A DNA stretch of 44,470 bases from Deferrivibrio essentukiensis (GTDB lineage Bacteria > Chrysiogenota > Deferribacteres > Deferribacterales > Deferrivibrionaceae): NCBI RefSeq assembly GCF_020480685.1, contig NZ_JAJAFU010000021.1, forward strand, positions 1 to 44,470, in the 5' to 3' direction. The position numbers and the translations under genes are program-made. This document shows positions 3,600 to 20,799 of the stretch, one piece after another; the first letter of the stretch is position 1, and every line of letters starts with the position of its first letter. A model generated the notes under the pieces. That model saw nothing but the letters and a program-made list of their open reading frames with translations. It had not been told where the DNA came from and made no database searches.

Positions 3600-3600
3600 A

Positions 3601-3616
3601 GGGAGGTTGCCCTCCC
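3601..3616. terminator. Hairpin between convergent genes, probable bidirectional terminator
   Basis: GGGAGG (3601-3606), loop TTGC, CCTCCC (3611-3616) form a perfect 6-bp GC stem. It lies in the 19-nt gap between the calpL stop and the stop of the outer-membrane gene on the other strand. Short A/T runs flank it on both sides, which suits termination in both directions. Confidence 0.6.
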
Positions 3617-3618
3617 CG

Positions 3619-4194
3619 TTAAAATTTAAATCCAGCTTCTATATTAGTTTTATACCCCCCTAATTGAAGAGTTTCTGAAGTATATTCAATTTCTTGATTG
3701 TTCGTAAAAATTTTAAAGTTTCCACCAATATAAAAATTATTTGTAATATCAAATAATAAGCCCGCTTGTATGACTACTCCAAGAGCAGTTCCTGTATCGC
3801 TATAGACCTCATCCCCATCAAGTGATATTTTTATTTCATTAACATAAGAACCAAAACCCAACCCTACATAAGGAGTAAATCTTTGATAGGTATTTTGTAA
3901 AATAACAGATGTTTCAAAAGCTGTAGTATTTATTTCATCTTTGGCATCATATCCATAAACAGAGTAATTATATTCAGTATTATGCCCTGAAATTTCGAAT
4001 CTTAATCCAAGAAAATCAGAAAACTTTCTTTGGTAATAAATGCCAAAATTAGTACCGGTATCATATTCTGATATATCACCGGCAGGGTTAAAGATTCCTA
4101 AATTGGCTCCAATATAGTTTTTTTTCAAATCGGCGCCAGATGCTGCAATAACCATTAGAAAAAGGATTAGTGTAACTAAATTCAGTTTTTTCAT
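3619..4194 (-). CDS. Outer-membrane beta-barrel protein (OmpW/opacity-like)
   Basis: A 191-residue protein with a clear Sec signal peptide (MKK, a hydrophobic stretch to about residue 17, cleavage near ASG-AD). It then has alternating short beta strands such as NFGIYYQRKF, FTPYVGLGFGSY and FYIGGNFKIF, and ends in a C-terminal Phe, the usual barrel-assembly signal. The length and pattern fit the 8-stranded porin-like outer-membrane superfamily. A good Shine-Dalgarno (GGAGG) precedes the ATG. It is unrelated to defence and sits convergent to calpL and divergent from cas6, so the CRISPR modules seem to have settled around a housekeeping gene. No specific ligand can be assigned. Confidence 0.8.
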   Translation of the reverse strand: MKKLNLVTLILFLMVIAASGADLKKNYIGANLGIFNPAGDISEYDTGTNFGIYYQRKFSDFLGLRFEISGHNTEYNYSVYGYDAKDEINTTAFETSVILQNTYQRFTPYVGLGFGSYVNEIKISLDGDEVYSDTGTALGVVIQAGLLFDITNNFYIGGNFKIFTNNQEIEYTSETLQLGGYKTNIEAGFKF

Positions 4195-4218
4195 ATTACC
4201 TCCAATTTAAATTTATTA

Positions 4219-4232
4219 GCTTTGCGCAAAGC
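4219..4232. promoter_or_regulatory. Perfect 14-bp palindrome in divergent promoter region
   Basis: GCTTTGCGCAAAGC is a perfect palindrome in the 138-bp gap between the divergent outer-membrane gene and cas6. It lies 25 nt upstream of the outer-membrane start codon and 54 nt upstream of the proposed cas6 -35 box. Size and symmetry suit a dimeric repressor or activator site. Which gene it controls is unknown. Confidence 0.4.
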
Positions 4233-4285
4233 ATACAACAAAAAACAATAAAATTTTTAATTTCTGACATTTTTTTTAACTTTAT

Positions 4286-4313
4286 TTGAAATTTCAAAAA
4301 AACATGATAAAAT
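4286..4313 (+). promoter_or_regulatory. Candidate sigma-70 promoter of the cas6-cmr operon
   Basis: TTGAAA (4286-4291), a 16-nt spacer and TAAAAT (4308-4313) preceded by TG at 4305-4306 (extended -10) form a good housekeeping promoter. Initiation near 4320 would leave a very short leader before the G-rich ribosome site (4323-4327) and the cas6 ATG at 4333. The genes to 16409 are nearly contiguous, so this may drive the whole 12-kb operon. Confidence 0.5.
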
Positions 4314-4332
4314 TTATACGTGCGGGGGTAGT

Positions 4333-5247
4333 ATGGGTATGATAATTAATTATGATTCTTTTAACTTTCTTCTAAAACTTGAAAAAAATATTTTTACAAG
4401 TACTTATCCGGCTTTTGTTTTAAGGTCTATCTTAGGTAAAGAATTAAAAAGATTTGCTTGTATTTTGAGGCATAAGAAATGTGAAGAGTGCCCATTAAAG
4501 TTTCAGTGTGCATATTCTTATATTTTTGAAACACCGATTAAAAAAGATACAGAATTTTTAGTAGGAAGAGATAAAGCTTCTCATCCTTTTACATTGTATT
4601 CAAATATAGATGAAAATCAGCACACTGATAAAATAGATTTTACTATTTCATTATTTGGTAAGGGTATAGAATATTTTCCATACATATTTTTTGGATTTTT
4701 AAAAGGTGGAGAAAACGGTATATATAGAGAAAGAACAAAATATACTATCGAAAAAGTTACTTGTAATGACTTTTTAGTAAATGATGGCACTAATGATTCG
4801 ATTGAATTATCTGAACCTAAAACATTTCAGTTAGATGAAGATAAAACAACTCTTATTGAAAAATCTTACAGTATAAAATTTATTACTCCTGTAAGATTAA
4901 AGGTTGGTGGCAACTACACGGCCAATATCTCATACTCAGATATAATTTTTTCTGCATTTAGAAGGTTAGAAGTACTTGGTAATATGTATGGCAAGATTAG
5001 TCCAGAGTTAAAAAATATAAATTCATTGTCAGAAAAAGAAGAGAAGAAGTGTCTAAGGTGGAAAGAGTATAACAGATATTCCGCCAGACAAAAATCAGCA
5101 ATGAAGCTTGGTGGAGCTGTTGGAGTGATAGACGTCAAAGGGAAGTTTACTCCTTTTGAAATATCACTTTTGGAATTTGCGTCTATATTTGGACTTGGCA
5201 AAAACACAGGCTTTGGTTTTGGAAAAGTAGAAGTGGAGGAAGTTTGA
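4333..5247 (+). CDS. cas6: Cas6 CRISPR repeat endoribonuclease
   Basis: A 304-residue Cas6 of the double-RAMP type. The N-terminal ferredoxin-like half holds the cysteine-rich segment KKCEECPLKFQCAYSYIFE (about 49-68), typical of the bacterial Cas6 family (PF10040). The C-terminus ends in the glycine-rich RAMP loop FGLGKNTGFGFGKVEVEE. Cas6 cuts the repeat in the array transcript. With this array the expected crRNA handle is the last 8 nt of the repeat, ATTACGAC. A catalytic His cannot be pinned down by eye. The stop codon overlaps the next ATG (TGATG), so cas6 leads the operon with can2 and cmr1-6. The start at 4333 is favoured by the G-rich site at 4323-4327; the Met at codon 3 is an alternative. 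Confidence 0.88.
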   Translation: MGMIINYDSFNFLLKLEKNIFTSTYPAFVLRSILGKELKRFACILRHKKCEECPLKFQCAYSYIFETPIKKDTEFLVGRDKASHPFTLYSNIDENQHTDKIDFTISLFGKGIEYFPYIFFGFLKGGENGIYRERTKYTIEKVTCNDFLVNDGTNDSIELSEPKTFQLDEDKTTLIEKSYSIKFITPVRLKVGGNYTANISYSDIIFSAFRRLEVLGNMYGKISPELKNINSLSEKEEKKCLRWKEYNRYSARQKSAMKLGGAVGVIDVKGKFTPFEISLLEFASIFGLGKNTGFGFGKVEVEEV

Positions 5248-6416
5248 TGGGAAGAAGGGTGCTGATGTCGTTAGTGAGTGCACAGACCGTACCAAATATA
5301 TTATTTATTAATGAGTTTAAAGAAAAATACGAGTTTAACTATTTTATCTTTGTGACAACAGATAAGATGGAAAAAGAGCGTAGAAGTGATGCTATTATTA
5401 ATACTTGCGACTTGAATATAAAAGAATGTGAAAAACTTATCGTTAGTGAAGACCATTTTCAAGATATTATCAGTAAATTGCTTAAAATATATAATGAAAG
5501 TGATGAGTATTACTTTAATTTGACCGGTGGCACTAAAATAATGTCTTTGGGGTTGTACGAGTTTGCCAAAGAGATAAAACAAACCGATAACCTATTTTAT
5601 ATCCCTAATGGTAAAAATTCTGTTGCAAATATTATATTTGATAATACAGAAGAGATAAAGTATCGTCTAAACATCAAAGAGTATTTTTCTTCTTACAATG
5701 TAAACATTAAAAATTTAAATAAGCTGCCGGGGGCATTGGAATGTGCAAAAAAGAGAGAGCAATATACTTATAAGCTTTGGGAATACTTTAATGAAAATAT
5801 GGACTCTTTTAAGCAGACGTCTGAAGATATAAGGGCTTACTGGAATTCTGAAAAAGTTAATACCAATGAAAAGAAAATAGAAGTGACTGAGCTAATAAAC
5901 ATAGGGAAAGCTTTTTTTGAAAGGCTAAATTTAGATATTAGCGGTGAATCAAAAAAACGCTTAAAGCATTGGATTAAATACTTAACGGGCGGGTGGTTTG
6001 AAGAGTTAATTTATTTTGAGACAAAGAAATTTTTATGTCTTGATGATGAATATATCTCATTGGGTATTGAAATTGACAAAGGTGGGGATAATGAGCTGGA
6101 TGTTGTTTTAACTTATGATAACAGACTTTATTATTTTGAATGTAAAACAGGGCTTGGGGCTAAGGAAAGCGACGTACTAAAAGAAACCTTTTATAAATTA
6201 TCCCATTTAAAAAGTCAGGAAAGTTTTGGTCTTGGGATGAATAATATCCTAATTTCTTTAGATGACCGAGTCTTATATGATAATAAAACCGGTGAACTGA
6301 AAGATAGGTATAAGTTAGCTAAAGATTATTACAGATTAATATTTTATGGTCTGAAAGATTTTAAAGAAAAAGGGATAGATGGCATTTTGAGAGAAATATT
6401 TAGAAAGGGGGCATAG
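5247..6416 (+). CDS. can2: Can2/Card1-type CARF nuclease activated by cyclic oligoadenylate
   Basis: A 389-residue CARF effector. The N-terminal Rossmann-like CARF half (about 1-150) contains LTGGTKIMSLGLYEFAK, matching the CARF ligand-loop pattern. The C-terminal half (about 215-389) is a PD-(D/E)xK nuclease: GGWFEEL (Glu253), NELDVVL (Asp285) and YYFECKTG (Glu298, Lys300). Size and order match Card1/Can2 (formerly DUF1887), metal-dependent nucleases that nick DNA and/or cut RNA when cyclic tetra-adenylate binds. The start is ATG at 5247, overlapping the cas6 stop and 6 nt after GGAGGA. A TTG one codon earlier is less likely. The nuclease residues look intact. Substrate preference (DNA or RNA) cannot be inferred. 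Confidence 0.88.
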   Translation: MGRRVLMSLVSAQTVPNILFINEFKEKYEFNYFIFVTTDKMEKERRSDAIINTCDLNIKECEKLIVSEDHFQDIISKLLKIYNESDEYYFNLTGGTKIMSLGLYEFAKEIKQTDNLFYIPNGKNSVANIIFDNTEEIKYRLNIKEYFSSYNVNIKNLNKLPGALECAKKREQYTYKLWEYFNENMDSFKQTSEDIRAYWNSEKVNTNEKKIEVTELINIGKAFFERLNLDISGESKKRLKHWIKYLTGGWFEELIYFETKKFLCLDDEYISLGIEIDKGGDNELDVVLTYDNRLYYFECKTGLGAKESDVLKETFYKLSHLKSQESFGLGMNNILISLDDRVLYDNKTGELKDRYKLAKDYYRLIFYGLKDFKEKGIDGILREIFRKGA

Positions 6417-7325
6417 ATGGCGTTTTATGTAGGTAGGTATAAAAATATTGAGAAAGTAACTTATAATATTGAAGTTGTGACTCCAATGTTTATCGGCGGG
6501 GCTGATCCAAAAAGTGCTGAGTTAAGAGTACCGCCAATAAAAGGGATGTTAAGATATTGGTGGAGAGCGATAAATTATAGTAAAGTAATAAATAATGATT
6601 TTTCAACACTTTTTAAGGATGAAAGCAAACTTTTTGGAGATAGTGATAAGTTTGGCCGTAGTAAAACAATTATAGAAATTATAAGTGATAAATATGGTAT
6701 AATCAGTGTTAATCCATTACCTCATAAAAATAGTAATTTTAGGTTCAATGCTGTCTCTCCTAAACACAATTTTATGGTTAAACTATGTGCACCAAAGGTT
6801 GTTCATAATTTATTTAAATTTTCATCAATTGTTGGTGGAGTTGGCAAAAGAGCAAGGAGAGGGTTTGGCGCATTTAATATTTTAAACTTACAGGAATATA
6901 ATGATGATATATCAGTTTTTCTGCTAAACTTGTTAGAATCTATAGTTCCAGGCAGTTACGATATTAGCAACAGAAATATCCTTGCGAAAAACTTCACTAA
7001 TGCTGAATATCCTTATCTAAAAAAAATTATTTTTGGGAAAAAGGATAAAAATGTTGATAATTTACTCGCTGAGATAGGTAAATCATCCCATAAAAATAAT
7101 TCAGATGGTACTGGCTATGCGAAAAAAGTTGGCAATAAAACGTATAGATTAGCTTCACCTGTTTATACTAGTATAACAAAGTCTAGTGAAGAATACTGTA
7201 TAATTGTTTCCAAATTAAATTTGGTTTCTAATATCAGAGTTGAAAATGATAATAGTAAGGAATTTATCAATGACTTGATAGATATAAAGTCTGAAGCCAA
7301 TAGAACTAACTCAAGGGGGAAATAA
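6417..7325 (+). CDS. cmr1: Cmr1 (Cas7-like) subunit of type III-B effector
   Basis: A 302-residue RAMP protein with the Cmr1 signature TPMFIGGADPKSAELRVPP followed by IKGMLRYWWRAI (about 21-54), and the glycine-rich loop GVGKRARRGFGAF near 140-155. Cmr1 caps the Cmr complex at the 3' end of the crRNA and helps bind target RNA. The ATG at 6417 directly follows the can2 stop, and cmr2 follows with no gap. At 302 residues it is somewhat short for the family, and the C-terminal half is weakly conserved by eye. Confidence 0.88.
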   Translation: MAFYVGRYKNIEKVTYNIEVVTPMFIGGADPKSAELRVPPIKGMLRYWWRAINYSKVINNDFSTLFKDESKLFGDSDKFGRSKTIIEIISDKYGIISVNPLPHKNSNFRFNAVSPKHNFMVKLCAPKVVHNLFKFSSIVGGVGKRARRGFGAFNILNLQEYNDDISVFLLNLLESIVPGSYDISNRNILAKNFTNAEYPYLKKIIFGKKDKNVDNLLAEIGKSSHKNNSDGTGYAKKVGNKTYRLASPVYTSITKSSEEYCIIVSKLNLVSNIRVENDNSKEFINDLIDIKSEANRTNSRGK

Positions 7326-10013
7326 ATGGCAATAAAACTACCTAAAAACTATTGGAATAATAAATTTTGGGCTTATATGCACGACCCTTTTGATAAGGCT
7401 CTTGATGTCAAAACACATATATCAAGGGCTAATCAATTAGTTGAAATATATACAGGTCTTTCTCAGCCAAATGAAGAGTTTTGGAAAAAAGCTGATGCTA
7501 TTGCGTCAGGTTTTGAGAGGGGGCAGATTACAAGTTATGATAAAAATGAAGAAAAGAGCGGTGCAGTTGATTTTCTGAAAGAGCCGATTATTACTCACCC
7601 TACCGGTGAAAGTTCACCTTTAAGAATAAATTTACCTCAGAAAATTGAAGCATCTGCGGTTTGGGAAGATTTGAAAGAGTTCATAAAAAAGGAGATAGGT
7701 ACAAAAGCTGGTTCTGGTGGGTATTCAGACAATTTTAAAGGGGATGAAGATAAATTTTCTATAGCAAGGTTTTTATACACTCACCTTGTTTTAAGGTTTA
7801 GGCTTGCTGAAGAAAATGTTGGTGGGCTTGGAGCTTTATGGCATAGATTGCCTGCCGACACAAGATTTCCTGATCATTCTATATGGCAACATAACGCTCT
7901 TGTGTCAGCAATCCAATCTTGTTTTGATATTGGGGGTAAAGATGATTTAGGAATGCTTGTTTTTAGTATTACTCCTGTACAAGGTTTTATAGCAAAAGCA
8001 AGAAAATTGAGGGATTATTGGACTGGCTCTATTTTACTTTCATGGTTAGCTTTTGAAGGTATAAAATGGGTAGTAGAAAATCTCGGACCTGACCATATTT
8101 TGTATCCTTCCCTTATTGACCAATATCTGGTAAATGAATATCTGGATAAAAATTGGAGTGTTAATAAAAGTTATTTTTTAAATAATCAAGCAACTATTGC
8201 ATCTTTTCCAAATAAGTTTTTACTTCTCATTCCATTTAGCAAATCAACAGAAATCGCTAACGAAATTCAAAAACATATTTTAAATGAATGGAACAATATT
8301 ATTAATTTAACTCAAAGTCAAATTGCCAAAGTTTTGAACTTGGATGAGAATAAGAGTGAGTATATAAAAGAGCTTTTTAATAGGCAGACTAAAAATTTTT
8401 GGGAATTTCAATGGGCTTCGGTTAGCATGCTAAAAAAGGAAAATGAAGAAGAAATTAAAAATCTTCTAAATGGAAAAAATTACAAAAGTCAATTTGAGTT
8501 ACTTAATAGTTTTATTAAAATGGTAGAAGGCAAAGGTTTTGATGAGTCTGGAATTGGAACACTATATTCAGTATCTCATGCTCTTTGTCAATCTTCTTTA
8601 GCTGCTACAAAGGCTAAAAAACAAATATTACGTCAGGAAGAACCCGGAGAAAAATGTCATCTTTGTGGGGAGTTCGAGGTGTTGCATACTGAAAAATATG
8701 ATAACAATATGTCTGCTAATGAATATAATGAAAAAATTAAAAAATTTTGGAATGACTTTATATCATCTTGGAATCCAGATTCAGATTTTAAAGAAAATGA
8801 AAAGCTTTGCTCGATTTGCACAACAAAAAGAATTGCCTATAGAGTATTAAAAAATGAAAAAAAGCATATTTTAAATTCTACATTTAAGCAGTCTGAAAAC
8901 TTCCCATCTACCACTTATATGGCACTTTATAACTATTATTTAAGAGAAAATATAGTTGATGAAGACAATAAAATTGAGTGTGCCAATAGAATTCATGAAA
9001 AAACAGATGATACAAAAGTAAAGGATAGATACTATGCAATATTAATGATGGATGGGGATAAAATGGGTGATTTGGTAAATGGTATTTCTATGGCTTCTAC
9101 CTGGCAATCTATAATGCATCCTTCAATTTATAAAAAGCTTAATGGCGGGACTATAGAAGAAAAATATTCTAAAAATTGGCAAAATATTTTTAAAAATTTG
9201 CCTAAAAGAAATCTCACTCCTGCTATTCATGCGGCTATTTCAGAGTCATTGGGAGATTTTGCAGTGTATGGTGTTTCAAGTATAATTAAAAATTATGGAG
9301 GTAGACTGATATATGCAGGTGGGGATGATGTTTGTGCTGTGATGCCAGTAAGCACTGCGTTAGATGCAGCTGAAGAGATAAGTGAATATTATAAGTCCTA
9401 TTACAAGCTTATTTATAAAGGAAGCTCTAATGATATAAAAGTAATAGATATTGAAAACAGTTTTGATATTGAAATAGGCAAGCTGTCCATTAATCTTGGT
9501 AAGGGTGAGAAAATTTCAATTTCTGCAGGTATTTTAATTTGTCACCATAAGGCGGACTTATCTTTTATGATCAAAGAAGCCCATACACTTTTGGATAAGA
9601 AAGCTAAAATTGATGGTGGCAGAGATGCTGTTGCAATTCAATTAAAAAAGAGGAGTGGTGGTGATAGATTTTTTATAAGTAAGTTTAATGATGAAAGATT
9701 GCAAGCATTTAAATATTTGTCTGCATGTATGGGAGAAGAGATGTCACGATCTCTAGCTTATAGATTAGCTAGTTTTAAAGATGGTATAGAGGCAATTTTA
9801 AATAATAAAGATATTCAAGAAGCAGAAAGATTAGAATATTTAAGAACATTTATAAAATCTCAATTGGCGAAGTCAGGAAAAAGTGGAATCAGCCATGATG
9901 ATATGTCAGAAAATATAACAAAAGTTGTTTTAGATAACAAAGGATGTTTTACCAATGAAGCATTAATTATTGCTGGCTTTTTAAAACAGTATAAGGAGGT
10001 GAAAGGTGAATAG
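7326..10013 (+). CDS. cmr2: Cmr2/Cas10, type III-B signature subunit and cyclic oligoadenylate synthase
   Basis: An 895-residue Cas10. The N-terminus has the Cmr2 HD-like motif YMHDPFDKA (His19-Asp20) and later PADTRFPDHSIW. A zinc ribbon is formed by CHLCG (Cys444, Cys447) and CSIC (Cys495, Cys498). The first palm motif is MMDGDKMGD (Asp576, Asp578). The catalytic GGDD lies at 665-668 in YAGGDDVCAVMP. An intact GGDD means the complex should convert ATP to cyclic oligoadenylate when target RNA is bound, the signal for the CARF and SAVED effectors nearby. Whether the HD site cuts DNA is uncertain, since only the first HD pair is clear and this domain is often degenerate in Cmr2. It sits between cmr1 and cmr3 (8-nt overlap). 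Confidence 0.93.
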   Translation: MAIKLPKNYWNNKFWAYMHDPFDKALDVKTHISRANQLVEIYTGLSQPNEEFWKKADAIASGFERGQITSYDKNEEKSGAVDFLKEPIITHPTGESSPLRINLPQKIEASAVWEDLKEFIKKEIGTKAGSGGYSDNFKGDEDKFSIARFLYTHLVLRFRLAEENVGGLGALWHRLPADTRFPDHSIWQHNALVSAIQSCFDIGGKDDLGMLVFSITPVQGFIAKARKLRDYWTGSILLSWLAFEGIKWVVENLGPDHILYPSLIDQYLVNEYLDKNWSVNKSYFLNNQATIASFPNKFLLLIPFSKSTEIANEIQKHILNEWNNIINLTQSQIAKVLNLDENKSEYIKELFNRQTKNFWEFQWASVSMLKKENEEEIKNLLNGKNYKSQFELLNSFIKMVEGKGFDESGIGTLYSVSHALCQSSLAATKAKKQILRQEEPGEKCHLCGEFEVLHTEKYDNNMSANEYNEKIKKFWNDFISSWNPDSDFKENEKLCSICTTKRIAYRVLKNEKKHILNSTFKQSENFPSTTYMALYNYYLRENIVDEDNKIECANRIHEKTDDTKVKDRYYAILMMDGDKMGDLVNGISMASTWQSIMHPSIYKKLNGGTIEEKYSKNWQNIFKNLPKRNLTPAIHAAISESLGDFAVYGVSSIIKNYGGRLIYAGGDDVCAVMPVSTALDAAEEISEYYKSYYKLIYKGSSNDIKVIDIENSFDIEIGKLSINLGKGEKISISAGILICHHKADLSFMIKEAHTLLDKKAKIDGGRDAVAIQLKKRSGGDRFFISKFNDERLQAFKYLSACMGEEMSRSLAYRLASFKDGIEAILNNKDIQEAERLEYLRTFIKSQLAKSGKSGISHDDMSENITKVVLDNKGCFTNEALIIAGFLKQYKEVKGE

Positions 10014-10920
10014 TTGGTACACATTTGAGCCTGTTGATACATTATTTTTTAGAGGATCAGAGCCTATGATTATGGGTGAAAATCACACGTCAAATTTCAA
10101 TTTTCCACCACCTGCACACACTATTGAAGGGGCAATAAGGACATATTTTTATCATCTGGATAAAAAAGGGTATTCTGAAATAATTAGGTTGGGAGAAAAA
10201 AAGGGGTCTTTTAATGTAATAGGTCCTTTTTTCAAAGAGGATGGCAAGATATTTGTTCCTGCACCTTACAGCTGGTTTATAGAAAAGCAAGAAGAAAAAA
10301 CAGATACTGAAAATGAAAGTAAAGTTACAAAAGTTATAAAATCTTATAAGGTTTCGACTAATCTTATTCAGACATCAAATAATGAAACTTATTGGGTTAA
10401 ACCATCTGAAAAAGACGTAGAGACATTAGGAGGGAGATGGCTTTTATTGAGCGACTTAATTAGTAATAAAGAAAAAGTTGAAGTAAGAAATAGCTCTGAT
10501 TTTTTTGTACAGGAGTATAGGACTGGAATTGCTCTTGAAAAAAATAGAAAGGTTAGAGAAGGCCACATATATGCGTTTGTACATGCAAGGTTAAAAGAGA
10601 AAGTTTCTATAGTATTTGGTATCGATAAAGATTTGCCGCTGGAACATAGCGTTACAATTACACTTGGTGCTGAACAGAGATTTGGGAAATTAAAAAGAAT
10701 AGCTAATAATATCAATTTTGAGAATGATGGCTCTATGTACATGAATTTGTCTATTTTTGAGGCTAATGATGAGGCAAACAAACACATAGTGGCAACAGGA
10801 AAGCCTTTATACCTTGGCGGATGGGACTTAGCTAAAGGATTTCATAAGCCAATGAGAGGTTTTTTTCCGGCCGGTTCAGTTTTTACCAAAAAGTTAGATA
10901 ATAATTTTATAAATATTTAA
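10006..10920 (+). CDS. cmr3: Cmr3 (Cas5-like) subunit of type III-B effector
   Basis: A 304-residue protein starting with the Cmr3 signature EPVDTLFFRGSEPM (about 8-21), then FPPPAHTIEGAIRTY. It ends with the glycine-rich segments LGGWDLAKGFHKPMRG and FFPAGSVF. Cmr3 binds Cas10 and holds the 5' handle of the crRNA at the foot of the complex. It starts with GTG 8 nt inside cmr2, with a strong Shine-Dalgarno (AAGGAGG) just upstream. It is slightly short for the family but has both ends. Confidence 0.88.
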   Translation: MNSWYTFEPVDTLFFRGSEPMIMGENHTSNFNFPPPAHTIEGAIRTYFYHLDKKGYSEIIRLGEKKGSFNVIGPFFKEDGKIFVPAPYSWFIEKQEEKTDTENESKVTKVIKSYKVSTNLIQTSNNETYWVKPSEKDVETLGGRWLLLSDLISNKEKVEVRNSSDFFVQEYRTGIALEKNRKVREGHIYAFVHARLKEKVSIVFGIDKDLPLEHSVTITLGAEQRFGKLKRIANNINFENDGSMYMNLSIFEANDEANKHIVATGKPLYLGGWDLAKGFHKPMRGFFPAGSVFTKKLDNNFINI

Positions 10921-10932
10921 ATGGAGGCTATG

Positions 10933-11799
10933 ATGATCAAGAGAGAATTGAGTTCTATTCTTACTTTTTATGCTGTTTCACCTATCCATGCAGGTAGCGG
11001 AGCATCAGTGGCTACTGTGGACTTACCTATACAAAGGGAGCGACACACAGGTTATCCACATATTCAGGCTTCAGGGGTAAAAGGTAGCTTGAGGGATCAT
11101 TTTAGAAAATTTAATGAGACGAATGATGAAAAGTTGATAAATTTTATTTTTGGATCTGACACACAGGATGGATGGAGTAAATATGATGATTCTCAACCTG
11201 GTGCGATTTCTGTTTCAGATGCCAAATTATTATTCTTTCCGATGAGGTCAAATGTAGCACCATTTGTGTGGGTTACCTGCCCTACTGTTATGAATAGGCT
11301 CAAAAGAGATCTGGAGTATGCGGGTATATCAATGGAAGAAACATTTGAGGTTAAAGATGATGGGGCACAAGTATTGAAAGGTGATTTTAAAGGAGTTGCA
11401 AAAATAGTATTGGAGGATGCATTAGTAGTTGTTTCTAAAGAAGAACCCATTGAAGTAGATTTCATAAATAATAATTTTTCTGAAGTAGATAAATTATTAC
11501 TAATTTCGGATAAGATGTTTGATTATTGTGTTTCTTCCTGCACAGAAATCCAAACAAACATAAAAATTGATTCCAAAACAGGGACAGCCGAAGATGGATC
11601 TTTAAGGTATCAAGAATTTTTACCAGCTGACTCTATTTTGTATTCTATAATATATTACAGTGCATCATCTCAAGAACTTCAGGCTGTAAATATAAAAAAT
11701 TATCTCCAAACAACTATAAATAGTTTTTTACAAATAGGTGGTGATGTTACTCTCGGTAAAGGTGTTTGTAAAATTAAATGGATTGACGGGGGTAAATAA
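10933..11799 (+). CDS. cmr4: Cmr4 (Cas7-like) backbone subunit and target-RNA nuclease
   Basis: A 288-residue Cas7-like RAMP. The motif SPIHAGSGASVATVDLPIQ (about 16-34) carries the Asp (Asp30 from this start) expected to cut target RNA at 6-nt steps. HIQASGVKGSLRDHF follows, and the C-terminus has the loop GGDVTLGKGVCKIKW. Several copies form the backbone of the Cmr complex. I chose the ATG at 10933 because GGAGG at 10923-10927 sits the right distance upstream. An in-frame ATG at 10921 would overlap that ribosome site, and 10930 is also possible. Its stop overlaps the cmr5 start (TAATG). Confidence 0.88.
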   Translation: MIKRELSSILTFYAVSPIHAGSGASVATVDLPIQRERHTGYPHIQASGVKGSLRDHFRKFNETNDEKLINFIFGSDTQDGWSKYDDSQPGAISVSDAKLLFFPMRSNVAPFVWVTCPTVMNRLKRDLEYAGISMEETFEVKDDGAQVLKGDFKGVAKIVLEDALVVVSKEEPIEVDFINNNFSEVDKLLLISDKMFDYCVSSCTEIQTNIKIDSKTGTAEDGSLRYQEFLPADSILYSIIYYSASSQELQAVNIKNYLQTTINSFLQIGGDVTLGKGVCKIKWIDGGK

Positions 11800-12170
11800 T
11801 GAGAACTCTTGGACAAAAAAGGGCAGAATATGCTTTAGATAAAATTCTTAAACTGGAATGTGATAGAAAAGAGTTTAAATCTTTTTCAGCTGGCGTGCCT
11901 ACAATGATTTTACAAAATGGATTTGGTCAGACAATGGCTTTTTTTATAGCTAAAGGAACAGACAAAGACTTAAAAATAAACCAAAAAGACAAACATATTA
12001 TTCTCTTAAATATAATAAGGGAATGGGTTAAAGATATTATTCCTTCTATAGATGAAAAAACGTTTATAAATAATTTAAACATAGCTACTCAAGAGCAATA
12101 TCTTGAGGCTCAAAAAGAGGCATTAAAACTATTAGAATGGATTAAAAGATATGCAAATGCAGGTTTCTAA
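11799..12170 (+). CDS. cmr5: Cmr5 small subunit of type III-B effector
   Basis: A 123-residue, mostly helical protein of the usual Cmr5 size and position between cmr4 and cmr6. Typical Cmr5 features are the N-terminal GQKRAEYALDKI, the central FSAGVPTMILQNGFGQTMAF and the C-terminal EALKLLEWIKRYANAGF. Cmr5 forms the minor filament that stacks along the crRNA-target duplex. It overlaps the cmr4 stop by 1 nt. Confidence 0.88.
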   Translation: MRTLGQKRAEYALDKILKLECDRKEFKSFSAGVPTMILQNGFGQTMAFFIAKGTDKDLKINQKDKHIILLNIIREWVKDIIPSIDEKTFINNLNIATQEQYLEAQKEALKLLEWIKRYANAGF

Positions 12171-12182
12171 AAAGGGGAAGCT

Positions 12183-13346
12183 ATGATACCTATATATAAA
12201 GAAATAAGTGATATTGTAGGAAAAAATTATAATAAAGGTAATTTCGGACTTTGGTTTAATAAGTTTGTTGATATTGATGTTACTAAATTCAAGCCTGATG
12301 ATAAAAGCGTAAATAAATACAAAACAAAATATGATAATATTAAAGATGAGACTGAATCTTTTTTAGGAAAAAAACATTTACAGCAATATTGGTTTTGCAA
12401 AGCATATGAAAAAAAATACGACATATTGACAGTCCATGCTCATTTGTCTTCTCCAATGATTACTGGTATTGGTCAAACTCATCCAGGTGAGATCGGAATG
12501 ACTTTTGATCATACTATTGGTGTCCCTTATATCCCTGCTTCTTCAGTAAAAGGAATTGTAAGGTTTGCACATATTCTTAATATGATAGAAGATCCAGAAA
12601 ATGAAAATAGAATATTGAATAAAGAAGAAATTGATGATGAAGAAGATTGGACATTTGTGAAACATCTTTTTGGTAAAGGAGGGGATAAGGGAAATGTTGG
12701 TGATGTTATTTTTTTGGATGCCTATCCGGTCAAATCACCTGAGTTAGCCATAGATATTATTAATCCGCATTACCAAAAATATTATGATGAAAAAGGCAAA
12801 ACTCCCCCGGGAGATTATTTAGAGCCAGTACCAATAAAGTTTTTGACTGTTAAAACCGGTAATCAGTTTATTTTTAGGATACTGATTAAAAGAGATATCA
12901 AACTAGAAAATGGAGTTACACTTACAGAATTAGTAAAAAAAGCCTTGGATAGAGTTTTAACTATTGAGGGAGTTGGTGCAAAAACAGCTGTTGGATATGG
13001 GAGATTTAATATAATTTCTTATAATGAGTATGAAAAAATAAAGTCTTTAGCTCAAAAAGAAATTGAGAAAACAAAAAGAGCTATAGAAGAAAAACAAATT
13101 GAGAAAAAAATGAACTCTATGTCAGAAATAGAAAAAGTAATTTTTAATTTGAAAAGCAGTAAAGATGAAAATTTTTCTATGGAAATATATCAAAATATAG
13201 ATGCTTATTCAGGTGAAGATAAGAAAAAAATTGCGAACGCACTTAAAGAAAAATGGATAGAACTTAAAAAATGGGATAAAAAAGATATTAGTAAAAAACA
13301 GAAAGAAAAAGTTGAAAAAATCAAACAAATTTTAGGAGAAAACTAA
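12183..13346 (+). CDS. cmr6: Cmr6 (Cas7-like) subunit with long charged C-terminal extension
   Basis: A 387-residue RAMP protein. Residues about 80-275 hold the Cmr6 core: SPMITGIGQTHPGEIG, then YIPASSVKGIVRFAH, VPIKFLTVKTGNQF and the final loop GVGAKTAVGYGRF. After this the protein continues for about 110 residues of lysine/glutamate-rich helix (KKMNSMSEIEKVIF, then KKDISKKQKEKVEKIKQ), well beyond the usual end. Cmr6 sits near the 3' end of the crRNA next to Cmr1. The extension looks like a coiled coil plus a basic tail and could bind RNA or a partner; that is inference. A good ribosome site (AAAGGGG) precedes the ATG. Confidence 0.88.
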   Translation: MIPIYKEISDIVGKNYNKGNFGLWFNKFVDIDVTKFKPDDKSVNKYKTKYDNIKDETESFLGKKHLQQYWFCKAYEKKYDILTVHAHLSSPMITGIGQTHPGEIGMTFDHTIGVPYIPASSVKGIVRFAHILNMIEDPENENRILNKEEIDDEEDWTFVKHLFGKGGDKGNVGDVIFLDAYPVKSPELAIDIINPHYQKYYDEKGKTPPGDYLEPVPIKFLTVKTGNQFIFRILIKRDIKLENGVTLTELVKKALDRVLTIEGVGAKTAVGYGRFNIISYNEYEKIKSLAQKEIEKTKRAIEEKQIEKKMNSMSEIEKVIFNLKSSKDENFSMEIYQNIDAYSGEDKKKIANALKEKWIELKKWDKKDISKKQKEKVEKIKQILGEN

Positions 13347-13358
13347 AATAATAGTGAT

Positions 13359-15443
13359 ATGTTTATGCATCCTAACATACTGATTACCACGCTTGGGCAT
13401 TCTTGGCAGTTAATTCCTGAACTTTTAGGGTTTACTAACCCTGATGATTTTGGGTTTTATGACGAGCACCCCGATGAAGAAAAGATAAATGCTTTAAGGC
13501 GTTTAAGCAGTATAAGGTCAATTAATGAAGTATGGGTTATTTCAACTGATAACAAAGTAGCACTTGATTCTATTAAAAAATCAAGAGATTGGCTAAATAG
13601 CCAGTTTCTTGATATTACGTTAAGAGCTTTTATCCTCAAAGGTGTTCCCGATTTGATTAGTGTTGAACATTGTAGGCAAATGAGTAATTTGATTTACTCA
13701 GTAGTTTTGGCAGGGAAAAAGTATGCGAGTAATGGGCAGCTAATTTTATCTTTAAGCGGTGGTCGTAAAACCATGAGTGCAGATATGCAAGAAGCTGGAA
13801 ACATTTTTGGTTTTGATGCCATGATTCATATTATAGATGATGGTAAAATACCCACAGAGTTTAGAAATTCTAATGATATTGATGCTAAATATTGTAAACA
13901 TTTTATGCCAATTGTTGCTTTTGGTAAAAAAGAAGCCAGTAAGATTGTTTATTTAGAGCCGAATATATTAAATATTAAACAATATGAGATTGATATTGAT
14001 GATACTCAATTTTTAAAGCCTGATACATGTCTCTATGAAGAAATAGAGGAAAGGCGTAAAAAATCAAGAAATATAGCTTTTAATTTTTATCAAAAAATTT
14101 ATCAAAGCGAGCCATCATCAAACTTTTATTCTCTTTATTTTTTAGAGCCTGATAAAATTGAGACTTTAAAAGATAAAAAAATAGATAATTTTGACTACAG
14201 TTTAATAAAAAAACTACCAAAAGCTGAACTACATTGTCACTTAGGCGGAATAGCTAATGCTGAGGAAATTATTGAAATAGCTCATTCAAATATAGAAAAA
14301 ATAAATTATTTTCGAAAAACAAATACAGAATATGACAAATGGTTAGATTTGATTAAAGAATACATAGTAAGTGGCGAACTAACACCTCTTGAGGATTTGG
14401 TTAAAAATTCTAAACAAAAATTATTTAAATATTTTGACGCTATTCCAGAGCCATATAATCTGGCTGGCTTTCTTATTCAATTTAGAGGTTATGAAGATAT
14501 TTTAGATAAACTTATATATGGTAAATATTTACAAAGTGAAAAATTTACAAATATTGGAATAGAAGAATATTCAAGTTTGGGAGACTTACAAGGTTCAGGC
14601 CTATTGCAAACTAAGGAATCACTGATTACTGCTTGTAATATCTTAAAAAGAAAGGCAATAGAACATAATGTAAAATATCTTGAGCTGCGATGCTCCCCAA
14701 ATAATTACACTAAATGTGATTTAAGTGTTAGTGATGTAGTAAATACTCTCATTGAAAACTTAAAATCAGAAGATACGATATTTAAACTTATTTTTATTGC
14801 AACAAGACATAAAAAAATGAGTGAAATCTATCAAATTATAGAGTTTGTTTTAGAACATATTGATAATAAAAACAATGATTTTGCTGAAATGTTTGTTGGT
14901 TTTGATTTAGCCGGTAATGAAGAACTTAGAAAGCCAGTAGAGTTAAGAAATGCTTTTTTACCAATTTTAGAAAAATGTCTAAAAATTACTATACACGCAG
15001 GTGAAACTGCAGAAGCTGAAAGTATATGGGAAGCTATTTATCATTTGAGTGCCGATAGAATAGGGCATGGATTAAAATTATTAGAAAAAAAAGATTTGAT
15101 AGGAAAAATAAAGGAAAGAAAAATATCTATAGAGTTGTGTCCTTCCAGTAATAAACAGATATTAGATTTTACTATAAAAGAATATCCTATAAAAAAATAT
15201 TTAAACGAAGGGCTTAGAGTCACAATTAATACTGACAATATTGGTATTTCAAGGACTGATTTCACTAATGAATACATAGTTGCCTCTAATTTAATAAATA
15301 ACAATTTAAACTTTTGGGAAGTTTTACAATTGATTAAAAATTCATTTATATCTGCTTTTTGCAAAGCAGATGTTAGAAAAGATTTAGTTTTGCAAGCTGA
15401 AAGAGAAGTGTTGGAGATAATTAATGAAGAATTCTTTAAATGA
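13359..15443 (+). CDS. cad1: Cad1: CARF-fused adenosine deaminase effector
   Basis: A 694-residue fusion. Residues 1-200 are a CARF domain (ILITTLGHSWQLIPELLGF; ligand loop ILSLSGGRKTMSADMQEAG at 129-147). After a linker, residues about 280-690 are an adenosine deaminase (metallo-dependent hydrolase) domain with the zinc and catalytic set: AELHCHLGG (His292, His294), IHAGET (His546, Glu549), DRIGHG (His570), ELCPSSN and NTDN (Asp626). This is the plan of Cad1, which deaminates ATP to ITP on cyclic oligoadenylate binding. The residue after the zinc Asp is Asn627, where classic deaminases have Asp. It follows cmr6 by 12 nt and overlaps the Nudix gene by 20 nt. The ribosome site is weak; the Met at codon 3 is an alternative start. 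Confidence 0.9.
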   Translation: MFMHPNILITTLGHSWQLIPELLGFTNPDDFGFYDEHPDEEKINALRRLSSIRSINEVWVISTDNKVALDSIKKSRDWLNSQFLDITLRAFILKGVPDLISVEHCRQMSNLIYSVVLAGKKYASNGQLILSLSGGRKTMSADMQEAGNIFGFDAMIHIIDDGKIPTEFRNSNDIDAKYCKHFMPIVAFGKKEASKIVYLEPNILNIKQYEIDIDDTQFLKPDTCLYEEIEERRKKSRNIAFNFYQKIYQSEPSSNFYSLYFLEPDKIETLKDKKIDNFDYSLIKKLPKAELHCHLGGIANAEEIIEIAHSNIEKINYFRKTNTEYDKWLDLIKEYIVSGELTPLEDLVKNSKQKLFKYFDAIPEPYNLAGFLIQFRGYEDILDKLIYGKYLQSEKFTNIGIEEYSSLGDLQGSGLLQTKESLITACNILKRKAIEHNVKYLELRCSPNNYTKCDLSVSDVVNTLIENLKSEDTIFKLIFIATRHKKMSEIYQIIEFVLEHIDNKNNDFAEMFVGFDLAGNEELRKPVELRNAFLPILEKCLKITIHAGETAEAESIWEAIYHLSADRIGHGLKLLEKKDLIGKIKERKISIELCPSSNKQILDFTIKEYPIKKYLNEGLRVTINTDNIGISRTDFTNEYIVASNLINNNLNFWEVLQLIKNSFISAFCKADVRKDLVLQAEREVLEIINEEFFK

Positions 15444-16011
15444 TATACTTGTTTTTAAAAGAAAAGATATAAAGAAAAAGTATTTAAAAGAAAAAACTGT
15501 AATTGAAATAACAGAAAAACAACTTATTAAAGATTTTAAACCGGAGTCGATTAATTTTATTGAACGGGATAAATGCGAATATAATGTAGAATATAAACAA
15601 ATTATCCCCTATGTACTTGTGACTTATCTTAACAAAATGGCGTGTTATCAGAGAAATGGCAGTGAGAATAGATTGCATGGAAAATATTCGGTAGGTATTG
15701 GCGGGCATGTAGAGAAACAAGATTATGTTTATCAGGCATTAATACCGACAATACATAATGCAATTTATAGAGAGCTTTCTGAAGAGTTTTTGGACTTTAA
15801 TTTTTATAAGACAAGTTTAGCTTTTTTAGGAGTTATTAATGAAGAGCTTACAGAGGTAGGTCATACTCACATTGGATTTGTTTATTTATTAAATACAGCA
15901 AAACAGTTTGCTCCGGGTAAAGAATTAGATAATCTTGAATGGTTAGACATTGCAGACATTTATGAAAAAGACTTAGAGCTTTGGAGTAAACTCGCACTGG
16001 AGCTAATGTAG
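15424..16011 (+). CDS. Nudix-family hydrolase coupled to Cad1
   Basis: A 195-residue protein with a Nudix box: GIGGHVE (91-97) followed by YRELSEE (115-121). The Arg-Glu and Glu-Glu pair that binds Mg2+ is intact, with extra residues between the two halves. Further features are FLGVINEE and HTHIGFVYLL. Nudix enzymes split nucleoside diphosphates linked to a second group, and several act on (d)ITP or other non-canonical NTPs. The gene starts inside the 3' end of cad1 and ends in the start of csx20, so it is co-translated with an enzyme expected to make ITP. My inference is that it acts on the Cad1 product (ITP to IMP) or otherwise tunes that arm. The substrate is not shown by the sequence. Confidence 0.82.
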   Translation: MKNSLNDILVFKRKDIKKKYLKEKTVIEITEKQLIKDFKPESINFIERDKCEYNVEYKQIIPYVLVTYLNKMACYQRNGSENRLHGKYSVGIGGHVEKQDYVYQALIPTIHNAIYRELSEEFLDFNFYKTSLAFLGVINEELTEVGHTHIGFVYLLNTAKQFAPGKELDNLEWLDIADIYEKDLELWSKLALELM

Positions 16012-16409
16012 TGACAAAGCTATTTCTACTATTTAGCCATAAACTAACTGATAAACAAATAACGGATGCAAAAGAGAGTCTGGGTGTAGAGAAATTTGTA
16101 TATTTGCCTGATGATTTACAAGTTATTTGGAGTCAGGTTTCACCATATAGTGAATTGCCATTAATTGAGCTTAACAGGATTGTAGACTGGCTAAAATTTG
16201 AAGCTAATAAAGGAGATTATATTTTAGTGCAGGGTGATTTTGGAGCTACTTTTTATGTCGTGGACTTTTGTTTAAAAAATAACTTAATACCTGTTTATTC
16301 CACAAGCAGAAGAATCTCAGTGGAAAAAAACGGCAATAATGGTAAAATAGTAAAAACTAATATTTTTGAACATGTAACCTTTAGAAAATACAGATATTTT
16401 GCGTTTTAG
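16011..16409 (+). CDS. csx20: Csx20-like protein, ring-nuclease family
   Basis: A 132-residue protein with a GTG start that overlaps the Nudix stop (TAGTG). Characteristic segments are KLFLLFSHKLTDKQ, EKFVYLPDDLQ, the core GDYILVQGDFGATFYVVDF and IPVYSTSRR. I recognise these as Csx20, a small type III accessory protein reported to belong to the ring nucleases, which cleave cyclic oligoadenylate and switch the response off. It is the last gene of the cas operon, directly before the CRISPR leader. If it acts on the species used here, it would reset CalpL, Can2 and Cad1 together. I assigned the family from remembered motifs, without an alignment. Confidence 0.78.
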   Translation: MTKLFLLFSHKLTDKQITDAKESLGVEKFVYLPDDLQVIWSQVSPYSELPLIELNRIVDWLKFEANKGDYILVQGDFGATFYVVDFCLKNNLIPVYSTSRRISVEKNGNNGKIVKTNIFEHVTFRKYRYFAF

Positions 16410-16709: not shown

Positions 16710-19700
16710 ATTGGAATCATTGACCTGACTTGAAGGGATTACGACTTTTTCCTTTTCTATTCTTTTTGTAAAATACAGTTTTTATTGGAATCATTGACCT
16801 GACTTGAAGGGATTACGACTATGATTTGCAACAAAGGAGTTACGGCAACTCCTTCTAATTGGAATCATTGACCTGACTTGAAGGGATTACGACATTTTAT
16901 TAATAACGGTTGGCAATTAGTCCGCCAACAATTGGAATCATTGACCTGACTTGAAGGGATTACGACGGATTAGAGGTTTGTCTTTAAGACAAGTCTCTAA
17001 TAATATTGGAATCATTGACCTGACTTGAAGGGATTACGACATATATTTTTTTGCCATCTGAGTTAAATATCTCTATTAGATTGGAATCATTGACCTGACT
17101 TGAAGGGATTACGACGTCCCAGTAGTTTTTCCAAACAGAGGTTGCTCTCAGCATTGGAATCATTGACCTGACTTGAAGGGATTACGACTTGCTATCAGTA
17201 AAAAAATCCCATAACTCAATCCTTGAAAATTGGAATCATTGACCTGACTTGAAGGGATTACGACCATAAGAGCCTCCTATAAATTATATTATTTGTACTA
17301 AATTGGAATCATTGACCTGACTTGAAGGGATTACGACTTTATAGCCACCAGTAACACCTATTTGCTTTCAATAAATTGGAATCATTGACCTGACTTGAAG
17401 GGATTACGACTAGACTACTCAATAATTCCTCAATTGCCTTTTTAGCCTTATTGGAATTTATGACCTGACTTGAAGGGATTACGACCTATTGCGACGTAAT
17501 CACTTCTCATAAAACACCTCAATATTGGAATTTATGACCTGACTTGAAGGGATTACGACGTTAAAGGGATTCGGAGTATTAAACTCCCTTGACCAACAAT
17601 TGGAATTTATGACCTGACTTGAAGGGATTACGACACTTTTTTTGACTAACATAATACACTCCTTTTATTATATTGGAATTTATGACCTGACTTGAAGGGA
17701 TTACGACCTTAAAAGGGCTGTTAAAATAGCCTCAAGCTCGAGCCTTGCATTGGAATTTATGACCTGACTTGAAGGGATTACGACATTAGAGAACGTAATA
17801 TCTCTTTCTTTGCGGTATTCAATATTGGAATTTATGACCTGACTTGAAGGGATTACGACCTTCAGGCGATAATGTTGCCAATAGTTCCTTTAAATTATTG
17901 GAATTTATGACCTGACTTGAAGGGATTACGACCTCTTATCCATCTTCTTAAAGTATGCCTCCATCTGTTTTATTGGAATTTATGACCTGACTTGAAGGGA
18001 TTACGACCCTACTGGCTTATCAATAAAGAGCCCGTATATGTCGTCATTGGAATTTATGACCTGACTTGAAGGGATTACGACCTTAAATCTGAGTTCATTA
18101 TACCAACGAGCGGCGTCATTGGAATTTATGACCTGACTTGAAGGGATTACGACTGTTTCCCAAGCCTCTTTATACGATAATGTCTTTTCTTTATTGGAAT
18201 TTATGACCTGACTTGAAGGGATTACGACTCACAATACGCGAATTCAGCGCTGCTGTAATACCTCACTATTGGAATTTATGACCTGACTTGAAGGGATTAC
18301 GACTACTGCTCCCAATTCAACATTTTTTCATTGGTGCTATATTGGAATTTATGACCTGACTTGAAGGGATTACGACCGTCTATCACCTTTACTTTCTGAG
18401 AGCCTAAGCCACTAAATTGGAATTTATGACCTGACTTGAAGGGATTACGACACCAACACCAATAGCACAAGGCTTTTTACCTGTCATAAATTGGAATCAT
18501 TGACCTGACTTGAAGGGATTACGACCAAATACGTAACCTCTTATAGCCATCCAATGAGCAACAGATTGGAATCATTGACCTGACTTGAAGGGATTACGAC
18601 TTGCACTCATAGTCCTTTTGGACTATGTTGTTGCCATATTGGAATCATTGACCTGACTTGAAGGGATTACGACAAACTCCTCCCCAACCCTGTCTCCTGT
18701 GTGGTCATTTCCCATTGGAATCATTGACCTGACTTGAAGGGATTACGACTATACTTAGCCCCCAACTTATTTCTTCTTTAGTATTTATTGGAATCATTGA
18801 CCTGACTTGAAGGGATTACGACATTACTTAACATATCCTCTACATATTCCTCTTTTAGAAATATTGGAATCATTGACCTGACTTGAAGGGATTACGACTA
18901 AGCACAACCAGACATAAGCAAACTGATGCCCGTGATTGGAATCATTGACCTGACTTGAAGGGATTACGACTAAAACTCAGCGAAGGCACGGCACATTTCC
19001 TCGTAGCTATTGGAATCATTGACCTGACTTGAAGGGATTACGACATTTTATCCAATTCAACCCACGGAGTTCCTTTTTCGATTGGAATCATTGACCTGAC
19101 TTGAAGGGATTACGACTACTGCTTGAATGTTTTTCACTTTCCAGTTGCCATTGTTATTGGAATCATTGACCTGACTTGAAGGGATTACGACATTCGCCGT
19201 CCGAAAGCTTGCGTTTTTAGTTAACGGTATTATTGGGATCATTGACCTGACTTGAAGGGATTACGACATTCGCCGTCCGAAAGCTTGCGTTTTTAGTTAA
19301 CGGTATTATTGGAATCATTGACCTGACTTGAAGGGATTACGACGATATTATCCCTGATATGTTTACAGGTGATAATACCATATTGGAATCATTGACCTGA
19401 CTTGAAGGGATTACGACATCTATTAAATATAAAATTGAAAGCAGGGCTGCCAATAGATTGGAATCATTGACCTGACTTGAAGGGATTACGACGCAGTTCT
19501 TCTTTTCTTATAAACAACACTTCCATGTTGCACATTGGAATCATTGACCTGACTTGAAGGGATTACGACTATAAAAGTATCAACAGCTACCATATTACAC
19601 CTCTCCTTATTGGAATCATTGACCTGACTTGAAGGGATTACGACTTTATAATTTCTATTGTTAAATTATCCATATATAAACCCATTGGAATCATTGACCT

Positions 19701-20000
19701 GACTTGAAGGGATTACGACAAGTTCTGTAGACCACAATAGCCAATTTTGATAATATTATTGGAATCATTGACCTGACTTGAAGGGATTACGACTATAAAC
19801 TCTGCTACTCTCATTTTATACCCTCCATTTTATTGGAATCATTGACCTGACTTGAAGGGATTACGACTTCAATAGTGAAAACTTTCATACTCTTTCCTCC
19901 TTTTTTATTGGAATCATTGACCTGACTTGAAGGGATTACGACACTACAATCTGGACATAAGTATTTGTTGTCGCTATATGATTGGAATCATTGACCTGAC

Positions 20001-20050
20001 TTCCAGCAAGCTTGGTGCAGAAACATCGGGAGTTAACTATGCCCGATGTT
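20001..20050. mobile_element. 50-bp hairpin element inserted in CRISPR repeat 45 (copy 1)
   Basis: The repeat is intact on both sides of this 50-nt block: 19981-20000 and 20051-20066 join to make a normal 36-nt repeat. The block starts TTCCAGCAAGCTTGG and contains a perfect 10-bp stem, AAACATCGGG (20021-20030) with CCCGATGTTT (20042-20051), around an 11-nt loop. TT is present at both junctions and could be a 2-bp target duplication. It has no coding capacity. It may be a non-autonomous palindromic (MITE- or REP-like) element or a terminator-like hairpin. Confidence 0.75.
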
Positions 20051-20126
20051 TTGAAGGGATTACGACTCAATAAGCTTGAAAATTGCGATACAAGCCCTTG
20101 AATTGTATTGGAATCATTGACCTGAC

Positions 20127-20176
20127 TTCCAGCAAGCTTGGTGCAGAAACATCGGGGGCTAACTGTGCCCGATGTT
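20127..20176. mobile_element. 50-bp hairpin element in CRISPR repeat 46 (copy 2)
   Basis: Same length and same insertion point as copy 1. It differs at three positions, all in the loop (GGGAGTTAACTATGCCC becomes GGGGGCTAACTGTGCCC), while the 10-bp stem is unchanged. The flanking repeat is complete on the left but breaks off after TTGAAGGGATT on the right (20187), marking the end of the array. Confidence 0.75.
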
Positions 20177-20187
20177 TTGAAGGGATT

Positions 20188-20799
20188 GATTTAAAAATTT
20201 TGAATTTTGAATTTTGAATTTTGAATTATGAATTATGAATTATTTGTTTTACATTTTTGTTGTATTTAGCTTAATACAAATACTAATTTTGAGCATTGAA
20301 CATTGAACTTCTTAGTACTTAATGTTTAATTCTTAACACTATTTTCTGACCTGACTTCCAGCAAGCTTGGTGTAGAAACATCGGGAGTTAATTATGCCCG
20401 ATGTTTTTTAGCAAGCTTGGAATAGAAACATCAGGATTAATATGCCTGATGTTTTGAAGGGATTTAATTTTGAATGTTGAAGTATGGATTATGAATTATG
20501 AATTTTTTTATAAAGGTTTTAGAGACATAGTACTTAACACTTAACACTTAATACTTAATACTTAAGGCTTAATTCTTAACGCTTATTTCTGACCTTACTT
20601 TGTATAAGTAACGTTAGAAAGTTGAAACGTAGAACGTAGAACCTTGAACATTGAACCTTGAACCTTGAACATTGAACATTGAACTTCTTAATACTTAACA
20701 CTTAGAACTAAATTCGAACATAGAACGCTTAACTTTTTCATGACTTAAGTTGATTACATTAAAACTAAAATTGCAAATGTTTGTGAAAATATCTGTTGA
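20188..20799. repeat. Decayed array end with period-7 simple repeats, no gene
   Basis: About 600 nt without a credible gene. It holds runs of 7-nt units: GAATTTT/GAATTAT at about 20200-20245, TTAACAC/TTAATAC at about 20534-20583, and GAACCTT/GAACATT at about 20640-20690, plus the relic repeat with two hairpin elements (20347-20464). CTGACCTTACTTTG near 20586 may be another eroded CRISPR repeat. The same heptamer family appears inside the C-terminal pglX gene. It looks like eroded trailer DNA expanded by slippage. Confidence 0.7.
20356..20453. mobile_element. Tandem pair of the hairpin element in a relic CRISPR repeat (copies 3 and 4)
   Basis: Copy 3 (20356-20405) closely matches copy 1. Copy 4 (20406-20453) is diverged: its stem is AAACATCAGG (20426-20435) with CCTGATGTTT (20445-20454), a G-to-A change matched by a C-to-T change on the other arm, so pairing is kept. 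The pair is bracketed by TGACCTGAC (20347-20355) and TTGAAGGGATT (20454-20464), the two halves of the CRISPR repeat. This is therefore a relic repeat beyond the current array that was invaded at the same point. Confidence 0.75.

Follow-up and report, generated by a model that had tools for sequence, protein, structure and literature searches.

A dispersed hairpin repeat of the Deferribacterales found at one fixed point within terminal CRISPR repeats

The window analyzed here is the whole of a 44,470-base contig from the 64-contig draft genome of Deferrivibrio essentukiensis (G000). It holds a type III-B locus with a CRISPR array, and the features relevant to this study are listed in Table 1. 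The type III-B operon (positions 2091-16409) also encodes a SAVED protein, Card1/Can2, a CARF-adenosine deaminase, and Csx20, so that three accessory proteins of the cyclic-nucleotide type (SAVED, Card1/Can2, and CARF-adenosine deaminase) are found together in one type III-B operon. Cas1 genes are present in the genome. On the other side of the array, positions 22378-44180 contain genes resembling defence functions, among them an ADP-ribosylglycohydrolase, a McrBC-like pair, a BREX BrxC, and an SNF2 helicase. The leader is placed at the left of the array, because the same leader precedes the C16 array of this genome and three arrays of Deferrivibrio metallireducens (G001; PMC11896075), a member of the same genus. 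The repeat of the array is ATTGGAATCATTGACCTGACTTGAAGGGATTACGAC, and its variants follow one another in blocks, that is, 10 repeats of the ATTGGAATCATT type (CATT), 14 of the ATTGGAATTTAT type (TTAT), and 22 again of the ATTGGAATCATT type (CATT). This mosaic is a sign of array fusion. At positions 19192-19307 the same 40-nt spacer (ATTCGCCGTCC...GGTATT) occurs in two successive units, with an intervening repeat carrying a G (ATTGGGATC); this is a unit duplication.

Table 1. Features of the type III-B locus and of the CRISPR array end in the window (positions in nucleotides of the window)
Feature	Position	Strand	Remarks
Cas6	4333..5247	+	PF10040, E 9.5e-15
Type III-B effector genes	6417..13346	+	Cmr1, Cas10/Cmr2, Cmr3, Cmr4, 123-aa gene, Cmr6
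CRISPR array, 46 repeats	16710..20187	+	leader on left; beside type III-B locus
Module copy 1, 50 nt	20003..20052	+	splits penultimate repeat (19981-20002 / 20053-20066)
Module copy 2, 50 nt	20129..20178	+	splits terminal repeat (20107-20128 / 20179-20187, the latter a truncated 3' half, GAAGGGATT)
AT-rich trailer, 7-bp (heptad) repeats	20188..20347	+	close match to trailer of C33 array, whose terminal repeat is without module
Module copy 3, 50 nt	20358..20407	+	in trailer, after fossil half-repeat GACCTGACTT (20348-20357)
Module copy 4, 48 nt	20408..20455	+	in tandem with copy 3; fossil half-repeat GAAGGGATT downstream (20456-20464)

The last two repeats of the array are split at one and the same point (ATTGGAATCATTGACCTGACTT - 50 nt - GAAGGGATT) and are separated by an ordinary 40-nt spacer. 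The interrupting module lies between GACCTGACTT and GAAGGGATT in both. An earlier note on this DNA had described four copies of 48-50 bp, three of them at the same point of a CRISPR repeat and the fourth in tandem. All four are present in this arrangement, with two corrections: copies 3 and 4 form a single tandem insert within one vestigial repeat, and the boundary of the insert is ambiguous by 2 nt due to shared T's, since CCAGC...GATGTTTT between TT and GAAGGG reads equally well. Copies 1, 2, and 3 vary from each other in a few loop and linker bases, while the stem of copy 4 contains the compensated G-C to A-T change that had been pointed out in the same note (CATCAGG/CCTGATG versus CATCGGG/CCCGATG). 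When scored with a covariance model that was built from related modules, these copies included, the window copies reach E values of 1e-15 to 1e-17 per genome; from these scores, together with independent copies in other families, the copies are considered to be beyond chance.

Across genomes, the module measures 48-52 bases and, following a T-run, is composed of a mini-palindrome, usually YGGNNCAGAAAC, a stem-loop, and GTTTT. The linker box between mini-palindrome and stem can be written YGG-NNCAGAAAC. Judged by eye, the mini-palindromes differ by copy, with AGC-AA-GCT, GGC-TA-GCC, AAC-GA-GTT, and GAC-AA-GTC as versions. The stem, as defined from 23 copies, comprises 10 bp, namely AAAC and six variable pairs, closed by GTTT. 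In these 23 copies 97.8% of the stem cells are paired, two-sided changes number 46 versus 14 in shuffles, and pairing falls to about 50% or less once the partner is shifted by 1-3 columns. Stem sequences thus diverge widely among copies yet remain complementary, and the reading of the earlier note that the hairpin is maintained is supported. The variable stem of 66 distinct copies (330 cells) contains 313 Watson-Crick, 4 G-U, and 13 mismatched cells. RNA-only selection acting on one-sided transitions would leave G-U pairs; their rarity therefore suggests that the palindrome is kept at the DNA level, whether through selection or because one arm is copied by template switching.

With the covariance model R2, matches are obtained in 18 of 45 Deferribacterales genomes at E<=0.01. 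At E<=0.001, 15 of these 45 genomes are positive (G000, G003, G004, G007, G008, G011, G014, G020, G027, G029, G030, G032, G034, G036, and G038) versus 1 of 92 others, 137 genomes in all; the sole outsider, G112, contributes a single weak match. The number of matches per genome goes up to 33 at E<=0.001 and to 49 at E<=0.01, reverse-strand echoes counted. Scanning the GTDB contig collection with a near-core pattern gave 12 records from Deferribacterales/Deferribacteraceae/Seleniivibrio and one unrelated MAG, the match of which has no hairpin. Viral carriage was not seen, three IMG/VR pattern matches and one MAG match being devoid of hairpins and attributable to chance. A repeat family whose stems change in sequence while staying complementary is thereby documented across a whole bacterial order. 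Most of its copies are intergenic, overlap with a mechanical ORF being limited to 15 of 74 distinct contexts. They are found in many unrelated surroundings, some of them in tandem or mosaic and with no consistent downstream gene; 19 distinct contexts, the four window copies included, lie between convergent genes. In the window genome, Calditerrivibrio nitroreducens (G003; PMC3072091), and Flexistipes sinusarabici (G011; PMC3236037), all strong R2 matches are CRISPR-linked or trailer fossils, while dispersed copies occur in other families.

The insertion behaviour of the module is best seen outside CRISPR. In the genus including G014 and G036, it stands right after the loop T-run of a CCYCY-type palindrome in 14 of 68 distinct contexts. 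The empty palindrome CCYCYTTT-NNN-AAARGRGG occurs 57 times in G014 and 62 times in G036, with 0 occurrences of a reversed-pattern control, and G014 holds both the empty form CCTCCTTTGACAAAGGAGG and the filled form CCTCCTTT[CCGGCTAG...GTTTT]GACAAAGGAGG. As empty palindromes are common alongside filled ones, the module is an insertion there. The CRISPR site has the same form, CCTGACTT[CCAGC...GTTTT]GAAGG. When flanks are joined after removal of the module, they are palindromic in 15 of 68 contexts compared to 5% with swapped flanks. General targeting of palindrome loops was nevertheless rejected, because most of this signal stems from the CCYCY family; loop placement is real and clear for the CCYCY palindrome and the CRISPR repeat, the latter folding weakly when taken alone, and for one or two single cases, while elsewhere the module merely follows a T-run. 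Copies outside CRISPR are often located at T-runs beside or inside other palindromes. A clear target duplication is not visible; the junction T's are shared at both ends and could represent a duplication of 2-4 nt, such duplications being a hallmark of MITEs together with terminal inverted repeats of a known transposase. The conjecture that a palindromic element targets this particular repeat is accordingly correct in so far as the point is fixed in three families, but the preference is not repeat-specific, most copies being located elsewhere in the order. The earlier note had counted copies in unrelated flanks without any preferred site as evidence against its reading, which applies by half: the flanks are indeed unrelated, but the preference for T-runs and loops remains.

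At the ends of CRISPR arrays, the module occupies the same internal repeat point in three families, represented by the window, Calditerrivibrio, and Flexistipes, by which a fixed insertion point within CRISPR repeats is documented. In C. nitroreducens, the terminal repeat of two arrays is interrupted at that point, and in F. sinusarabici this applies to all six array or sub-array ends seen. The modules of both organisms are confined to terminal repeats or trailer fossils, and the penultimate repeat of the window is the single exception to this limitation. In Flexistipes, two module versions with two different trailers are found at the same repeat point. One module-trailer unit is situated behind two different variants of the 5' repeat half, from which it would follow that the unit has been exchanged by recombination inside the repeat. 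Two other arrays of the window genome, C33 and C16, have the same repeat with uninterrupted terminal repeats, and carry modules in trailer fossil repeats. The C33 trailer following the empty terminal repeat closely matches the window trailer following the filled one (GAAGGGATTGATTTAAAAATTTTGAATT), and the terminal repeat and trailer of C16 match the window sequence after copy 4; hence, the same place exists both empty and filled within one genome. Three arrays of D. metallireducens possess the same leader and repeat and do without a module, which is therefore dispensable. As a separate observation, a Flexistipes locus (L154, G011:C1:1708700-1711750) consists of consecutive sub-arrays, each ending in an interrupted repeat plus trailer and restarting without a leader, with trailers of about 220 bp in three of them; the genome paper of this organism lists 0 CRISPR repeats (PMC3236037).

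From this scenario it is probable, though short of certain, that a non-autonomous, REP/BIME-like hairpin repeat of the Deferribacterales entered a terminal CRISPR repeat and was subsequently spread, and precisely lost, by recombination between repeats. The module would insert behind a T-run, and at least two of its sites would be loops of palindromes already present; its place in CRISPR loci would be the apical loop of the terminal repeat farthest from the leader. In the CRISPR case, too, the direction would be insertion rather than loss. The module-plus-trailer unit would then have been moved between arrays, duplicated, and cleanly lost via ordinary recombination of interrupted with normal repeats. 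A crossover between an interrupted terminal repeat and a normal one anywhere in the shared 3' half would remove the module exactly, and recombination of the interrupted end of one array with the penultimate repeat of another would yield two interrupted repeats around one spacer. By splitting the terminal repeat and acting like a terminator, the hairpin would help to end the transcript and prevent the formation of extraneous crRNA from the last repeat.

The two adjacent interrupted repeats around an ordinary 40-nt spacer, along with the Cas1 genes of the genome, would also fit the proposal that an interrupted repeat of 86 nt originally lay next to the leader and was duplicated in full by Cas1-Cas2, with the insert being lost from later repeats. 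This is very unlikely, since it needs a precise reversion in the next leader-proximal repeat, and no array of any relative displays a run of interrupted repeats. The proposal is also unnecessary, as the array joins blocks of different repeat variants and both repeat states occur on matching trailers, which recombination explains at no cost. An assembly or sequencing artefact, for which the draft state of the genome might speak, has a negligible chance of being the cause because the same arrangement is present in the finished genomes of F. sinusarabici (PMC3236037) and C. nitroreducens (PMC3072091). Regarding the means of movement, the earlier suggestion of an IS200/IS605- or REP-associated transposase did not hold: the presence of Y1 (PF01797) does not track module number, and the Y1/RAYT domain is absent from the module-rich genomes G008, G036, G014, G020, G029, G027, and G038. 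G016, by comparison, has 17 Y1 genes with identical scores on one strand of one replicon (G016:C2) and no module. The search for a mobilizer, conducted with Y1 (PF01797), yielded no transposase or other candidate. A bolder version of the insertion model, in which a loop-targeting mobile hairpin is moved by an enzyme acting on single-stranded or cruciform DNA and has on several independent occasions become a portable cap that ends the array transcript and silences the last repeat, is rather improbable; the placement of modules may still provide a lead to a mobilizer with a preference for palindrome loops.

As to function, an array-ending role or one in blocking extraneous crRNA is plausible but unproven. 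In most systems, and in Class 1 too, extraneous crRNA originates from the last repeat, and disruption of terminal repeats is frequent (PMC13187072, PMC6610086). Against this background the module could be a selected cap, kept in the last repeat since it terminates the pre-crRNA and destroys the repeat, by which extraneous crRNA derived from the trailer would be prevented. Consistent with this are the terminal position in three families, the preservation of the hairpin through compensated changes, and an intact 3' handle of the terminal repeat in the G003 arrays read and in one trailer type of G011, where the module is the main disruption. Yet such selection is doubtful. Three G001 arrays lack the module, a genuine spacer would be silenced by the split in the window's penultimate repeat, and the 3' end of the terminal repeat is defective anyway in the window, C33, and C16. 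The T-run is short, too, with a 10-bp stem being followed by only four T's that partly pair with A's, and a terminator scan flagged only copy 3, and that weakly. Moreover, the module is retained at non-CRISPR sites as well, so that conservation of the stem is not CRISPR-specific. These arrays may in any event serve as a natural case for testing the inactivation of terminal CRISPR repeats in type III systems. The conserved linker box and the covarying stem would likewise fit a structured RNA gene or a riboswitch-like element, but this is most improbable given that an Rfam scan of the window at gathering thresholds gave no match, that G-U cells are fewer than true mismatches, which favours DNA-level selection or copying, and that the copies occur in tandem and in unrelated intergenic contexts in front of no consistent gene.

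The REP/BIME-like insertion model draws on several resemblances. As with REP and BIME elements, short and mostly extragenic hairpin modules are present in multiple copies within one lineage, as single units, tandem copies, or mosaics that include other palindromes. In contrast to REP elements, module-rich genomes are without a Y1/RAYT transposase, the stem is hypervariable whereas the REP stem is conserved, and copy number is lower, with a maximum of 33 at E<=0.001 as opposed to usually >100 REP copies per genome (PMC2817692). REP elements of the GTAG/CGTC superfamilies carry a tetranucleotide tag at one end of the hairpin (PMC3733652); the module has no such tag, its hairpin base being AGAAAC...GTTTT. 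Site-specific insertion into a repeated palindrome is shared with ISPpu9, ISPpu10, ISPa11, and other ISs that insert into REP palindromes (PMC1525189), but here the inserted entity is the gene-less 50-nt hairpin itself. Likewise, alteration of the last repeat at the array end opposite the leader is in line with the disrupted terminal repeats treated in PMC6610086 and PMC13187072. The devices against extraneous crRNA described in the available parts of these two papers are point mutations, leader-repeat hairpins, an upstream terminator, and a hairpin trapping the ecrRNA spacer, while the present case involves a genome-dispersed hairpin repeat that interrupts the CRISPR repeat at a single point. 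An element with such a habit was not found in the literature searched.

Some further loci deserve mention. In three genomes of one genus, the module is contained in each copy of a longer dispersed repeat of about 100 bp or more (...TTCGACAAATAGTTTAAAGTGGACTC-module-CAGCCTTCGGCTAGTGCTC...; loci L116-L121, L123, L129, and L133). Loci L134-L148 of G008 are intergenic hairpin chains with variable stems and two alternating linkers, CTGTCCACCAA and AGAGCAAGCTCGGAACAGAAA. Finally, a divergent module at L131 (G038:C3:215801-217057) has a different repeat array about 250 bp away, with a repeat containing GTTCACTGCCGCATAGGC and a spacing of 60.
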